Below, in pieces: positions 11,359 through 28,269 of a stretch of 64,000 nt of DNA. A program made the position numbers and the translations under genes. The DNA lies in NCBI RefSeq assembly GCF_000317085.1, contig NC_019702.1, forward strand, positions 960,394 through 1,024,393, in the 5' to 3' direction. Numbering within the stretch: position 1 is the first letter of the stretch; each line of letters begins with the position of its first letter. Source of the DNA: Synechococcus sp. PCC 7502 (GTDB lineage Bacteria > Cyanobacteriota > Cyanobacteriia > Pseudanabaenales > Pseudanabaenaceae). The notes beneath the pieces are model-generated. The model was not told the DNA's origin. It saw nothing but the letters and a program-made list of their open reading frames with translations, and did no database searches.

Positions 11359-11419
11359 GGCAAAAATCAATTTAGGTCTATGTCTAGAATATGGGATTTT
11401 GGAGCTTTTGATTTTGGTA

Positions 11420-12232
11420 CTAAGAATTGGGAGTAGAATTAGGATTAATTTGGTCGAAGTCTTGCTCTGCTTGATCCTTAAATTGGCTACCATCGGGCAT
11501 AGTGGCACCGTAGAAATTAGCATCACCCAAATTTGCCCCAATCATCGTGGCATGAACTAGTATAGCTTCCTTAAAAATTGCTCCTGTTAAATCTGCTCCA
11601 ATTAAATTGGCTCTAACTAAAATCGTTCCACTGAAATTAGCAGACTTGAGGTTAGCATTACTTAACTTGGCTTTGTGCAGTAAGGCATCTTCTAAATTGG
11701 CATCACTTAAATTTGCTCCGCTTAGATTCGCCCCACTTAAGTTAGCACCGCTTAAATTGGCATTCTTTAAATTGGCATAGATCAAATCGGCATTAGTTAA
11801 ATTAGCCTGTCGCAGATCAGCATTCTCTAAATTCACATAGACTAAATCGGCGTTACTGAGATTACTGCCTGTGAGGTTTACCCTTGCCATCCTTGCATTT
11901 CGCAAAATAGTTTCTCGCAAGTCGGCACCTTTAAGATCAGTATCATTGAGGTTAATTGAGCGCAGGTTAGCTCCGACCAGATTGGAACCACTTAAATCTA
12001 CATGACTTAGATTAGCACCAATTAAATAGGCACCCATAAGGTTAGCATAGATCATCTCGGCACCGATTAATCTAGCGTCTCTGAGGTCAGCCGAACTAAG
12101 ATTGGCTCCACTTAAGTTAGAATTCCTGAGGTCGGAATTACTCAAATCCGCATACATCAAATTTATATGTTCTAGGTAGCATCCCACGCACTTTTTCGTA
12201 TCTAGTAATTGCTGTCGAAGCGATGGCTGCAT
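11420..12232 (-). CDS. Pentapeptide-repeat protein
   Basis: This 270-residue protein consists almost entirely of A(D/N)LxX pentapeptides (for example SGANLSGANLSGANLSDAN) from about residue 25 to 250, preceded by a short leader with KKCVGC. Such repeats fold into a right-handed quadrilateral beta-helix. I prefer the ATG at 12232 (MQPSLRQQLL), because leaders of this form are common in cyanobacterial pentapeptide proteins; an ATG at 12277 is possible. It has no signal peptide from the chosen start. The function is unknown; these proteins are abundant in cyanobacteria. Confidence 0.88.
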   Translation of the reverse strand: MQPSLRQQLLDTKKCVGCYLEHINLMYADLSNSDLRNSNLSGANLSSADLRDARLIGAEMIYANLMGAYLIGANLSHVDLSGSNLVGANLRSINLNDTDLKGADLRETILRNARMARVNLTGSNLSNADLVYVNLENADLRQANLTNADLIYANLKNANLSGANLSGANLSGANLSDANLEDALLHKAKLSNANLKSANFSGTILVRANLIGADLTGAIFKEAILVHATMIGANLGDANFYGATMPDGSQFKDQAEQDFDQINPNSTPNS

Positions 12233-24074: not shown

Positions 24075-24243
24075 GAATATAATTTGTTCTAACTGGATTA
24101 AATCCATACTAGCCTAACCATACTTTATGGAGTAAGCGATCGATCTCAAAATCATATTGTTAACGAGTTAGCCCATGATCGATCACAGTTACGGTAAGCT
24201 CTATACCATACAACGATTTCCCAGACAACGCCTTTTGTACCCG

Positions 24244-27200
24244 ATGAACCTATCCGATATCCTGAAAGACTCTGAGTATAAGCTTTCGCAGTTTAAGCCT
24301 GATGAAGTGGCTTGGCTTGAGCAGACTATTTTCTTAAAAACAAGTACTAAGGGGGATGTGCCTTATATTAAGTGTTTGGTTAGGGGTAAGGATATTAAGC
24401 TGACTCCTGAAGAGGCGGTTAGGCAGCTTTATTTAAATGTGTTAACAGGGCGCTATCAATATCCAGCTAATCGGATTTTGGTAGAGTATGAGGTTTCTTT
24501 TGGGCGGGAGAAGAAACGGGCTGATATTGCAATTATGGATAGGGATCGCCCGAATGTGCCTTATATCATCGTTGAACTGAAAAAGCCAAAACTTAAAGAT
24601 GGTAAGGAACAGCTAAAGTCTTATTGCAATGCTACAGGTTCACCGATTGGGGTTTGGACTAATGGCGAACAGATTTCTTTTTATCAACGCAAAGACCCTA
24701 ACTATTTTGAGGATATTACGGATATTCCAAATGTTAATCAAACATTGGCAGATATTCTCAATGAAAGGTTTACCCTCAACGATCTGGTAAAAAAAGATAA
24801 GCTGGTTACGGAGAAAAAGTCTTTAAAAGCACTGATTCTGGAAATGGAGGATGAAGTTCTTGCGAATGCGGGGGTTGATGTTTTTGAAGAGTTATTTATG
24901 CTGATTTTCACGAAGCTTTATGATGAGTGGGAATCTGGACGGGATGAGAAGCGTAAAAATACGAGATTGTTGGAATTTCGGAATACGGGACAAACTGAGA
25001 CTGAGCTAAAAATTAAGATTCAAGGCTTATTTGATCGAGCTAAAAAACAGTGGGAAGGCGTATTTAAGGAAAGTGACAAAATTACTCTTAGTCTTTCTCA
25101 TTTATCAATTTGCGTATCATCTTTGGAAAATGTGAAATTGTTTAATTCCAATCTTGATGTGGTTGATGAGGCGTTCGAGTATTTGATTAGTAAAAGTAGT
25201 AAAGGTGAAAAGGGGCAGTATTTCACACCACGCTATGTAATTGATATGTGTGTGAAGATGCTGAATCCACAGGAGGATGAGGCGATTATTGATACGGCGG
25301 CGGGTTCATCAGGTTTCCCTGTGCATACTATTTTTTATGTGTGGCAGCGAATTATTGATGATGAGGGTTTGCAGGTTAGCAACTTGTTCTCGTTGGAAAA
25401 GAAGCCTGTGCGTTGTGAAGATTATGTTAAAGGTAAGGTTTTTGCCATTGATTTTGATGAGAAGGCGGTACGGGTATCACGCACCTTAAATTTGATTGCG
25501 GGAGATGGACAGACAAATGTTTTACACTTGAATACGCTGGACTATGGATCGTGGAAAGAGAGAGCTAAAGAGGATGATTGGCGTGATGTTTATGGTGATG
25601 GGTTTAAGCGGTTGCGGGGTTTTGCTGATAAGAAGGATGATTTCAAGTCTTTTCAGTTTGATATTGTGATGGCTAATCCGCCGTTTGCAGGGGAAATTAA
25701 AGAATCACAAACTATTTCAAAGTACGATCTGGCGGTTAAGGGGAATGGTAAGCGGCAAGAAAAGATGGGACGAGATATTTTGTTTATTGAGCGCAATCTA
25801 GACTTTTTGAAGGCGGGAGGGCGAATGGCGGTGGTGTTGCCGCAGGGAAGGTTTAATAATTCTTCGGATAAGTATATTCGTGATTTTATTGCGGAACGTT
25901 GTCGTATTTTGGCGGTGGTGGGTTTGCACGGGAATACGTTTAAACCGCATACGGGGACTAAGACTTCGGTGTTGTTTGTGCAGAAGTGGAATGATGATCC
26001 GAGGGCTGGGGCTTTGTGTCCGCGTCGGGATAATTACAATATCTTTTTTGCGACGATGCGTAAAAGTGGTAAGGATAATTCAGGAGATAAAATCTATGTC
26101 AAAAAGTCCGATGGTTCAGGTGAGTTTTTGTTAGATGCTCATGGTCATTTGATTGTGGATCACGATCTGTTTAATCATGATGGCAAAACTCAAGATGGGA
26201 TTGCTGAGGCTTTTATTGAGTTTACGAAGAAGGAGAATTTAAGTTTTTTTGATTTAAGCTCATCTGTTACGCCGTTTGATGCTGAGAAGTATGATCGGTT
26301 AATGGGTGAGCTGGAAGCATCAGAAGTTCGATATAGTGACTTGGAACGTACCCATAGAATTGATTCTGAGTTCTTTAAGAAAGAATATATTGAAATTACA
26401 AGGATATTAAAACAAAAAAGATTAAACTCGATAACTAACTTGGTCAAGGTTTTTGATGGGAACCACATGAAAATCAGTGATAACTTTACTGATAATGGTA
26501 TTCCGTATTATCGAGGACAAGATATTCATCACTTTTTTATTGAACAATCATCACCTATTTTTATTGATGAAGATACTTATAACTTGAGTTATATGAAACG
26601 GTCTCATCTAAAAAAAGGAGATGTTTTACTCTCGATTGTAGGAACGATTGGAAGCGTGTCTTTTGTCAGTACAAATCAACCCGCAACTTGTAACTGTAAA
26701 CTAGCAATTTTGCGACCTCAAAAGGTTAAACCCGAATATTTCTCTACCTATCTAAATTCTAAATTTGGTCAAAGTCAAATTAAGAGATTTACTCGTGGAG
26801 CCGTGCAAATGGGACTGATCCTAGAAGATATGGATCAAGTTATAATTCCAGAGTTTTCATCAAAGATTGAAGAAAGTGTTTCTGATGTAATAATGCTTGC
26901 CGAAAAATGTCTAAGACAATCTGATAAAAGATATCAACAAGCTGAAGATTTGTTATTGTCAGAGCTTGGGTTGAAGGACTGGCAACCGACGGATGAAAAT
27001 ATTGCGGTTAAGAGTTTTTCGGCTTCATTTGGGACAAGCGATCGGCTTGATGCTGAACACTATCAACCTAAATTTGATCAACTCATCGAAAAAATTGAAC
27101 AAAAAGTAAACTTATCAAAACTCGGAGAATTATTAACTTGGAATCAACGAGGTAAACAGCCAAGCTACTTTGAAGAAGATCAAAATATATTAGATGGTTT

Positions 27201-27738
27201 ACCAGTTGTTAACTCAAAGCACGTTAGAGAAGGTCAAGTTATCTTAGTTGATAACCGTTATGCAAAGTATCAACCTGAAGATAAACCTCTAATTATTCAA
27301 ACTAATGATGTCCTGATTAATGGTACTGGTGTAGGAACTATTGGGCGATGCGCTCCATATCTACATAAGCAAAATGCTTTGCCAGATAATCACGTTACTA
27401 TTTTAAGAACCAAGGTACTTGATCCAGTCTATTTATCAATTTATATCAATAGTATTGCTGGTCAATATCAAGTTGAAAAATATTTAAAAGGTTCGTCTGG
27501 ACAAACAGAGCTATACCCTAAAGATATAGATAATTTTTGGGTATGGGAAGCTCCAGATAAAATTCAACAAAGGATTAAAAATAAGGTTGAAGAAGCACAT
27601 CAAAAACGTGAACAATCCAAGCAACTTTTAGAAATTGCTAAAACTGGAGTAGAAAAGGCGATAGAAGAAAATGAAGAATTAGCGATTAATTGGATTGAGA
27701 AAGAGCTTCAAAAACTAAATGTTTCTATAAATCAATAG
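24244..27738 (+). CDS. Single-chain restriction-methylation-specificity protein (nuclease + N6-adenine MTase + two TRDs)
   Basis: This is one polypeptide of about 1164 residues (1187 from an alternative ATG at 24175). Residue numbers count from the alternative start. An HsdR-N-like PD-(D/E)xK nuclease is at about 100-140 (D117 in KRADIAI, E134 and K136 in VELKK). Then comes a helical HsdM_N-like part and an N6-adenine methyltransferase at 340-610, with motif I TAAGSSGF and motif IV NPPF (501-504). Two HsdS-like target-recognition halves follow at about 730-930 and 1000-1180, each ending in a coiled coil. There is no helicase/translocase. The architecture is Type IIG/IIB-like rather than Type I. 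A toxin-antitoxin pair starts 11 bases downstream. HIP1 octamers are absent from the gene. Confidence 0.85.
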   Translation: MNLSDILKDSEYKLSQFKPDEVAWLEQTIFLKTSTKGDVPYIKCLVRGKDIKLTPEEAVRQLYLNVLTGRYQYPANRILVEYEVSFGREKKRADIAIMDRDRPNVPYIIVELKKPKLKDGKEQLKSYCNATGSPIGVWTNGEQISFYQRKDPNYFEDITDIPNVNQTLADILNERFTLNDLVKKDKLVTEKKSLKALILEMEDEVLANAGVDVFEELFMLIFTKLYDEWESGRDEKRKNTRLLEFRNTGQTETELKIKIQGLFDRAKKQWEGVFKESDKITLSLSHLSICVSSLENVKLFNSNLDVVDEAFEYLISKSSKGEKGQYFTPRYVIDMCVKMLNPQEDEAIIDTAAGSSGFPVHTIFYVWQRIIDDEGLQVSNLFSLEKKPVRCEDYVKGKVFAIDFDEKAVRVSRTLNLIAGDGQTNVLHLNTLDYGSWKERAKEDDWRDVYGDGFKRLRGFADKKDDFKSFQFDIVMANPPFAGEIKESQTISKYDLAVKGNGKRQEKMGRDILFIERNLDFLKAGGRMAVVLPQGRFNNSSDKYIRDFIAERCRILAVVGLHGNTFKPHTGTKTSVLFVQKWNDDPRAGALCPRRDNYNIFFATMRKSGKDNSGDKIYVKKSDGSGEFLLDAHGHLIVDHDLFNHDGKTQDGIAEAFIEFTKKENLSFFDLSSSVTPFDAEKYDRLMGELEASEVRYSDLERTHRIDSEFFKKEYIEITRILKQKRLNSITNLVKVFDGNHMKISDNFTDNGIPYYRGQDIHHFFIEQSSPIFIDEDTYNLSYMKRSHLKKGDVLLSIVGTIGSVSFVSTNQPATCNCKLAILRPQKVKPEYFSTYLNSKFGQSQIKRFTRGAVQMGLILEDMDQVIIPEFSSKIEESVSDVIMLAEKCLRQSDKRYQQAEDLLLSELGLKDWQPTDENIAVKSFSASFGTSDRLDAEHYQPKFDQLIEKIEQKVNLSKLGELLTWNQRGKQPSYFEEDQNILDGLPVVNSKHVREGQVILVDNRYAKYQPEDKPLIIQTNDVLINGTGVGTIGRCAPYLHKQNALPDNHVTILRTKVLDPVYLSIYINSIAGQYQVEKYLKGSSGQTELYPKDIDNFWVWEAPDKIQQRIKNKVEEAHQKREQSKQLLEIAKTGVEKAIEENEELAINWIEKELQKLNVSINQ
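27632..27661 (+). repeat. 30-bp repeat, copy 1 (end of the R-M-S gene)
   Basis: AAATTGCTAAAACTGG starts this 30-bp segment, which encodes the IAKTGVEKAI part of the C-terminal coiled coil. Positions 28742-28771 repeat it with 28 of 30 bases identical. Confidence 0.85.
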
Positions 27739-27749
27739 GAGAAATAACC

Positions 27750-27989
27750 ATGCAAGCAGTTAAAGTAATGGCAAGCATCAACGAAAAAGGTCAACTCACC
27801 TTAGATTATCCCCTTGAGCTAAAGACAAATAGCCGAGTTGAAGTAATCATTCTTGTGTCTGAACCCGAAGAACCCGAAGAAATATCTAAACAAGAAATCA
27901 TCGCTGACTTTCGACAAGCTTGGCACGAAGCAATGACAGAGCAAACCATTCCTGTATCAGCAATGTGGGAGCAACTAGAAAATGACTAA
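27750..27989 (+). CDS. Antitoxin of a type II toxin-antitoxin pair
   Basis: This is a 79-residue acidic protein. The N-terminus (MQAVKVMASINEKGQLTLDY) resembles the beta-strand DNA-binding part of short antitoxins. A charged linker (EPEEPEEISK) is followed by an amphipathic helix that would wrap the toxin. It has a clear GGAG Shine-Dalgarno site. The last 8 bases overlap the downstream RelE-like toxin gene, which is the usual arrangement for translational coupling. The family of the antitoxin is not certain. It most likely represses its own promoter together with the toxin. Confidence 0.75.
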   Translation: MQAVKVMASINEKGQLTLDYPLELKTNSRVEVIILVSEPEEPEEISKQEIIADFRQAWHEAMTEQTIPVSAMWEQLEND

Positions 27990-28269
27990 CCAAATCCACG
28001 TTGAAGCCTCACCAACATTTCTAAAAAATATCCGCACACTTCGCAAAAAATATCCACGCATTCAGAATGATATGCAATCAGTCATTCAACAACTAGAGCA
28101 AGGAAAGTTATTAGGCGATCAAATATCAGGTGTTGGTTATCCTGTCTTCAAACTGAGAGTTAAAAATAGTGACATTCAAAAAGGAAAAAGTGGCGGCTAT
28201 CGTCTAATTTATTATGTCAAAACAGCGACAGGAATCGTTTTGCTGACCGTTTACCCCAAATCTGAATAA
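27982..28269 (+). CDS. RelE/ParE-superfamily toxin
   Basis: This is a 95-residue basic protein with the RelE/ParE layout: ASPTFLKNIRTLRKKYP at the N-terminus, two helices, then beta strands with VGYPVFKLRVKNSD, GGYRLIYYVK and TGIVLLTVYPKSE. The Arg/Lys-rich GGYRLIYY strand is typical of mRNA-cleaving or gyrase-targeting members. Its start overlaps the antitoxin. The gene looks full-length. Target and mechanism cannot be read from sequence alone. Confidence 0.8.
   Translation: MTNQIHVEASPTFLKNIRTLRKKYPRIQNDMQSVIQQLEQGKLLGDQISGVGYPVFKLRVKNSDIQKGKSGGYRLIYYVKTATGIVLLTVYPKSE

Follow-up and report, generated by a model that had tools for sequence, protein, structure and literature searches.

The gene described here lies within a 64,000-nucleotide stretch of the genome of Synechococcus sp. 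PCC 7502 (the window, in what follows) and encodes a restriction-modification (R-M) protein in which a nuclease, a methyltransferase and two recognition halves follow one another in the order R-M-S1-S2 (Table 1). The reading frame is open over 24175-27738 (+), such that an upstream ATG at 24175 offers an alternative start and a product of 1187 aa; the ATG at 24244, which the initial annotation had chosen, is nevertheless the better start because most homologues start at this position. Beyond the domain matches listed in Table 1, Pfam searches return Eco57I at 48 bits and Methylase_S, in two stretches, at 26.4 bits (cut-off 22), all four models scoring beyond their cut-offs. The closest solved sequence is that of RM.BsaXI (E 6e-23), at an identity of only ~20%. 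In an AlphaFold model of the chain, built from 30 homologues and with a mean pLDDT of 74.5 and a pTM of 0.47, the best PDB chain by fold for residues 1-668 is the BsaXI RM protein (8w2p, Z 22.6, 530 residues aligned), and for residues 725-1142 the best chains are S subunits of the HsdS type. Neither the Pfam nor the fold search finds a helicase or translocase motor domain in the chain, and none of the neighbouring ORFs in the window encodes an HsdR motor, the mfd-like gene found there not being HsdR. In other words, the R-M-S1-S2 order without a translocase that was first read from the letters holds, and the system is not placed in Type I, since an HsdR with a translocase motor is found neither in the chain nor in the neighbouring ORFs. 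Membership of MADS was likewise considered, the NCBIfam models for its DNA methyltransferase (MAD2) and S subunit (MAD5) both aligning along the chain, and was rejected on scores far under the curated cut-offs (325.6 versus 720 bits and 152.2 versus 400 bits, respectively); no further MADS gene was noticed beside the gene. The one-chain architecture is itself already known from AloI, CjeI, PpiI and TstI, which share with the window gene the R~gammaM~S1~S2 order in ~1200 aa, two target recognition domains (TRDs) and the lack of a motor (PMC3874165).

Table 1. Features of the R-M-S1-S2 gene and of its putative frameshift cassette, numbered from the first letter of the window.
Feature	Position	Strand	Remarks
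R-M-S1-S2 restriction-modification gene	24244..27738	+	0-frame full-length product, 1164 aa
HsdR-N-type nuclease domain (HSDR_N_2)	24406..24729	+	catalytic D94/E111/K113 (24244 numbering); Pfam 97.1 bits (cut-off 25)
Gamma-class N6-adenine methyltransferase domain	25156..26067	+	motif I DTAAGSSGF, motif IV NPPF; Pfam N6_Mtase 106.5 bits (cut-off 20.4)
Predicted short RM product	24244..26252	+	669 aa, end ...ENLSFF, from −1 slip then TGA 26250-26252
Shine-Dalgarno-like AAGGAG	26230..26235	+	8 nt upstream of slip site
Slippery heptamer T_TTT_TTT	26244..26250	+	codons AGT TTT TTT
−1-frame TGA stop	26250..26252	+	immediately behind slip
Stem-loop 5' arm AGCTCATCTGTTA	26257..26269	+	6 nt after heptamer
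Stem-loop 3' arm TAATGGGTGAGCT	26300..26312	+	
TRD1, first recognition half	26389..26859	+	HsdS fold match; 15-56% identity to homologues while R-M mostly 51-93%
Central conserved region with long helix	26860..27069	+	
TRD2, second recognition half	27070..27555	+	96-98% identical to L001/L002/L006 despite differing TRD1
Distal conserved region with long helix	27556..27735	+	

The predicted PD-(D/E)xK catalytic residues of the nuclease are present. Those first proposed as D117, E134 and K136, in the numbering from 24175, are D94, E111 and K113 when counted from 24244; they are invariant in 30 full-length fused homologues, and E105 and K107 of BsaXI align to E111 and K113. Together with the Pfam score, this bears out the HsdR-N-like assignment. 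A Q and a Y further along (Q123 and Y127) and the NPPF motif of the methyltransferase are likewise invariant in the same 30 homologues, and NPPF itself occurs in all 106 homologues. The second Ser of motif I had been singled out as an oddity where Gly was thought usual. This does not stand, since the motif, found in 104 of the 106 homologues, has Cys, Ser or Ala at this position in every one of them and never Gly; a residue other than Gly is the norm of the family.

In the C-terminal part of the chain, comparison with three relatives (L001, L002 and L006) gives identities of 96-98% for TRD2 and 20-29% for TRD1, the nuclease and methyltransferase being 83-92% and 77-92% identical. Judged by such comparisons, both C-terminal parts behave like recognition domains that relatives can exchange. 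The proposed pair of HsdS-like recognition halves is upheld by this exchange, by the two Methylase_S stretches and by the fold match, and from the two TRDs we infer, as had been expected, a bipartite DNA target.

The boundary between the M and S parts carries a complete −1 programmed ribosomal frameshift cassette (26230-26312), a feature absent from the initial annotation. The codons at the site read AAG GAG AAT TTA AGT TTT TTT GAT TTA AGC, and a conserved heptamer of the X_XXY_YYZ form at the nucleotide level, a 3' stem-loop (26257-26312, with a stem of 13 bp) and an upstream Shine-Dalgarno (SD)-like element are all present. Within the 64-kb window, which served as background, a slippery heptamer combined with a −1 stop directly behind it and a strong hairpin occurs nowhere else. 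Moreover, the end of the predicted 669-aa product coincides with the end of the RM ORF in those homologues that have two ORFs. The description of the protein as 'single-chain' is in this regard probably half the story: one ORF does cover all the domains, but the conserved cassette predicts an extra R-M product without S. As to the heptamers themselves, U_UUU_UUU and U_UUU_UUC belong to a frameshift-prone set, and G_GGA_AAG and C_CCA_AAG are among the most efficient in E. coli (PMC4066793); that U_UUU_UUU slips more weakly in E. coli than A_AAA_AAG (PMC5009743) counts against the proposal.

A first set of 80 homologous loci from species genomes was extended by further loci from genomes, plasmids, phages and viral contigs, giving 106 distinct junctions: 48 fused (the window included), 31 two-ORF with T_TTT_TT[T/C] (T-type), 15 two-ORF with G_GGA_AAG (G-type) and 12 others. 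Since the homologues are related, the locus counts given here and below represent non-independent events. Fused cassette loci are found in cyanobacteria, Gammaproteobacteria, Selenomonadaceae and Synergistaceae; T_TTT_TT[T/C] is preserved in 47 of the 48 fused loci, and in 41 a −1 stop follows at once. One of the exceptions (L018) has C_CCA_AAG and a −1 stop nine codons further on, and another (L042), which also seems to have lost a TRD, has neither a nearby −1 stop nor a hairpin. In the two-ORF loci that were inspected first, S often has no good start codon and RM ends at the T-run or at GTG GGA AAG; in all 46 two-ORF cassette loci S is open in the −1 frame relative to RM. Among the 12 other junctions, L051 has a displaced G_GGA_AAG, and ten of the remainder fall in one clade without the cassette, where a separate start comes after the stop and a hairpin is absent. 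Stop-codon readthrough was considered for seven loci in which RM and S share a frame split by a single stop, and was rejected because most of these have an ATG 0-3 codons from the stop, the stops vary (TAA, TGA and TAG) and there is no hairpin.

The census bears on the possibility that R-M and R-M-S are switched not by the ribosome but by RNA polymerase slipping along the T7/T8 run, or by phase variation in the length of that run. The T7 of fused genes and the T8 of some two-ORF loci differ by a single base, such runs can slip in transcription or replication, and the Thermus dnaX gene does use transcriptional slippage (PMC5009743). Nevertheless, in ten T-type loci the run is only six T long and ends in C, a G_GGA_AAG site with no run serves at least 15 loci, S lies in the −1 frame throughout the two-ORF cassette loci with no mixing of phases, and a hairpin and an SD-like element are stimulators of ribosomal frameshifting. 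We regard this explanation as very improbable.

An equally remote alternative is that S in the two-ORF loci is made by termination and re-initiation at a TTG or ATG ~40 nt downstream, the conserved DNA only coupling translation. In the K. pneumoniae and E. coli copies RefSeq indeed starts S at a TTG, S-frame codons 12-17 often include TTG or ATG, and an ATG precedes the conserved start of S in 18 of the 46 loci. The candidate start, however, lies within the 3' arm of the hairpin and is conserved for that reason; the clade that does re-initiate has its start close behind the stop and neither heptamer nor hairpin; and re-initiation leaves the same cassette in fused genes unexplained.

The codons of the cassette are constrained beyond the protein that they encode, each gene's own codon use setting the expectation. 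All 48/48 fused loci have T immediately ahead of TTT TTT (18.8 expected). In the T-type two-ORF loci the codon at this place encodes S, G, H or P, yet its third base is T in 31/31 (10.2 expected), even at 60% GC with a TTT:TTC usage of 4:28. As a control, another invariant Phe-Phe pair in these proteins, F601-F602, forms a slippery heptamer in no more than 3/47 and 1/30. When codon identity at conserved residues was scanned along the fused gene, the highest of 1086 windows fell at codons 667-675, precisely the slip site, with an identity of 0.87 versus 0.49 expected (z 7.5), making this the strongest synonymous constraint. The SD-like element of the fused loci is enriched in the same terms (GAG in 36/48 versus 17.8 expected, AAG in 31/36 versus 16.1), with no such enrichment in the G_GGA_AAG group.

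Nearly all cassette loci fold a hairpin beginning 5-7 nt past the heptamer. With versions that encode the same protein using the gene's own codon usage as controls, the window hairpin has a minimum free energy of −27.1 kcal/mol versus −13.4 kcal/mol for the synonymous versions, none of 200 being equally stable. Mean energies of real and synonymous sequences are −25.6 and −13.5 kcal/mol for fused, −28.7 and −14.3 kcal/mol for T-type and −22.5 and −11.5 kcal/mol for G-type loci; the median z is −3.7 to −3.9 in all three groups, as against −0.08 for 144 control windows in the R-M part. Energies at the same place in the group without the cassette are −4 to −12. Three fused loci (L041, L043 and L033) have hairpins that are not clearly beyond synonymous expectation. 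Two loop lengths exist among the two-ORF loci, and RNAalifold was applied to the set of equal length, in whose 39 unique sequences 98% of the stem cells are paired and four pairs have changes on both sides. Sliding the partner reduces pairing to 39-61%, while shuffling partners leaves it at 94%, only slightly below the observed value, because most of the variation is of the kind that G-U pairing tolerates. Seven fused loci (L005, L008, L021, L023, L106, L107 and L109) retain a hairpin even though unrelated palindromes now form its stem; in five of these (L021, L023, L106, L107 and L109) it is palindromic repeat-like sequences just after the heptamer that appear to have taken the place of the native stem.

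These observations are difficult to reconcile with the simplest view of the fused genes, namely that each encodes an ordinary single-chain enzyme like AloI, with a T-run and hairpin left over from a two-gene ancestor and with any short product irrelevant. In favour of such a view, activity as a single chain has been described for AloI and CjeI (PMC3874165), and the tree contains several conversions between the fused and split states (see below). A relic should decay, though, and yet the heptamer persists in all but one of the fused loci across four groups, the 41 immediate −1 stops are kept where the two-ORF form has no need of them, the hairpin survives the exchange of its stem for unrelated palindromes, and the top synonymous constraint of the gene sits at the slip site. 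We consider the relic improbable. By contrast, it is highly probable, reading from sequence, that the window gene encodes a motor-less R-M system of the Type IIB/IIG kind, in which a BsaXI-like R-M part is fused to a two-TRD S part, and that the subunit ratio of this system is set by −1 programmed ribosomal frameshifting.

The proposed mechanism runs as follows. Ribosomes reading straight through 26244-26250 would make the 1164-aa R-M-S1-S2 chain. A fraction of them, held up by AAGGAG on the upstream side and by the stem-loop ahead, would slip back one base on T_TTT_TTT, both tRNA-Phe re-pairing with UUU, and then stop at the TGA to give the 669-aa R-M chain without S. We infer the slipping, and with it some efficiency of slipping, from the cassette. 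One short and one long chain could then assemble as (RM)2S, placing one methyltransferase and one nuclease at each recognition half; with one arm per half, it is proposed, both strands would therefore be methylatable and both flanks cleavable, the flanks being the putative positions of the cuts. In the two-ORF relatives the roles would be reversed, normal reading giving R-M and the slip giving R-M-S. By analogy, the (RM)2S stoichiometry is the likely purpose of the slip: the two-subunit Type IIB enzyme BsaXI assembles in this way (PMC11997821) and shares with the window protein (as do BcgI and BaeI) its R-M fold, its ExK motif and a two-TRD S, differing in that its R-M and S genes are separate and in that its R-M protein, of 916 aa, has extra domains.

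In an unrooted tree of 105 R-M proteins, the group without the cassette forms one clade (support 100) opposite all the cassette loci. Counting well-supported branches, the fused label needs at least six changes, and G_GGA_AAG at least two. The tree and the junction sequences indicate that fused and two-ORF forms have been interconverted repeatedly, for example by a single T, with the cassette retained. It is probable that a widespread R-M family, fused and split, uses one ancestral −1 frameshift cassette to fix its ratio of R-M to R-M-S, small changes having repeatedly swapped the default product.

The closest precedent is the E. coli dnaX gene (tau/gamma), which also combines an SD-like element, a slippery heptamer, a stem-loop and a −1 stop giving a shorter product, and for which a reversal of roles is found in some bacteria (PMC5009743); it differs in that its protein is unrelated and its slip motif is A_AAA_AAG rather than T_TTT_TTT. 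A second parallel is the engineered EcoKI HsdM-HsdS fusion, which joins M and S in one chain yet depends on extra free M to cleave in vitro (PMC3510504), although this fusion is man-made, belongs to a Type I system with a separate HsdR translocase and has no slip site. For AloI, CjeI, PpiI and TstI, compared here by description, the account consulted mentions no frameshift cassette (PMC3874165). Searches of the openly accessible literature turned up no account of frameshifting in restriction-modification, and an earlier listing may exist in REBASE, in subscription papers or in the supplements of frameshift surveys (GeneTack). Expression of an R-M system through conserved −1 frameshifting appears, within that literature, to be new, while the architecture of the enzyme is known.

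In R-M enzymes each half of a bipartite site requires a nuclease and methylase arm of its own, and fused enzymes of this order have one arm for two; a 2013 review called the 1RM:2TRD ratio of the single-chain AloI/CjeI-type enzymes "a mystery" (PMC3874165). If the proposal is correct, a dnaX-like slip supplies the missing arm, answering how one-chain enzymes with two TRDs obtain their second, and a defence system joins the short list of cellular genes that use −1 frameshifting. Databases, moreover, probably mis-describe the family, its two-ORF members being entered as separate genes with doubtful TTG starts.

Several further observations concern the relatives and surroundings of the gene. Copies of the two-ORF cassette form that match at 100% identity across the searched 2 kb are present in three E. 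coli chromosomes and on a conjugative plasmid of Klebsiella; in these copies (L153 3878-7302, E. coli NZ_CP076272; L115 3977-7401, K. pneumoniae plasmid) the RefSeq TTG start of S is inside the hairpin. The same genome as the window contains a distant paralogous R-M and S pair (G000:C3:144340-147518; L082 and L084) at ~29-32% identity. This pair and one on a Trichormus plasmid have ordinary overlapping starts (ATG in the former) and no slip cassette, and the cassette is therefore not general to the superfamily. In two-ORF loci of Moraxella and Pasteurellaceae a third TRD lies beyond S, separated from it by an (AG)n or poly-G tract (L053 ~11395-11425; L055 and L064 ~11425; L065 9974-12196), being in frame in L065, in an open stretch of 741 aa; it looks like a phase-variable extra recognition domain. 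Directly 3' of the window gene, two ORFs, one small and antitoxin-like and the other for a RelE-like toxin, occupy 27751-28269, and the homologue on plasmid pAQ6 of PCC 7002 (L114 7558-8140) likewise has a small ORF and then a RelE/ParE toxin behind it.
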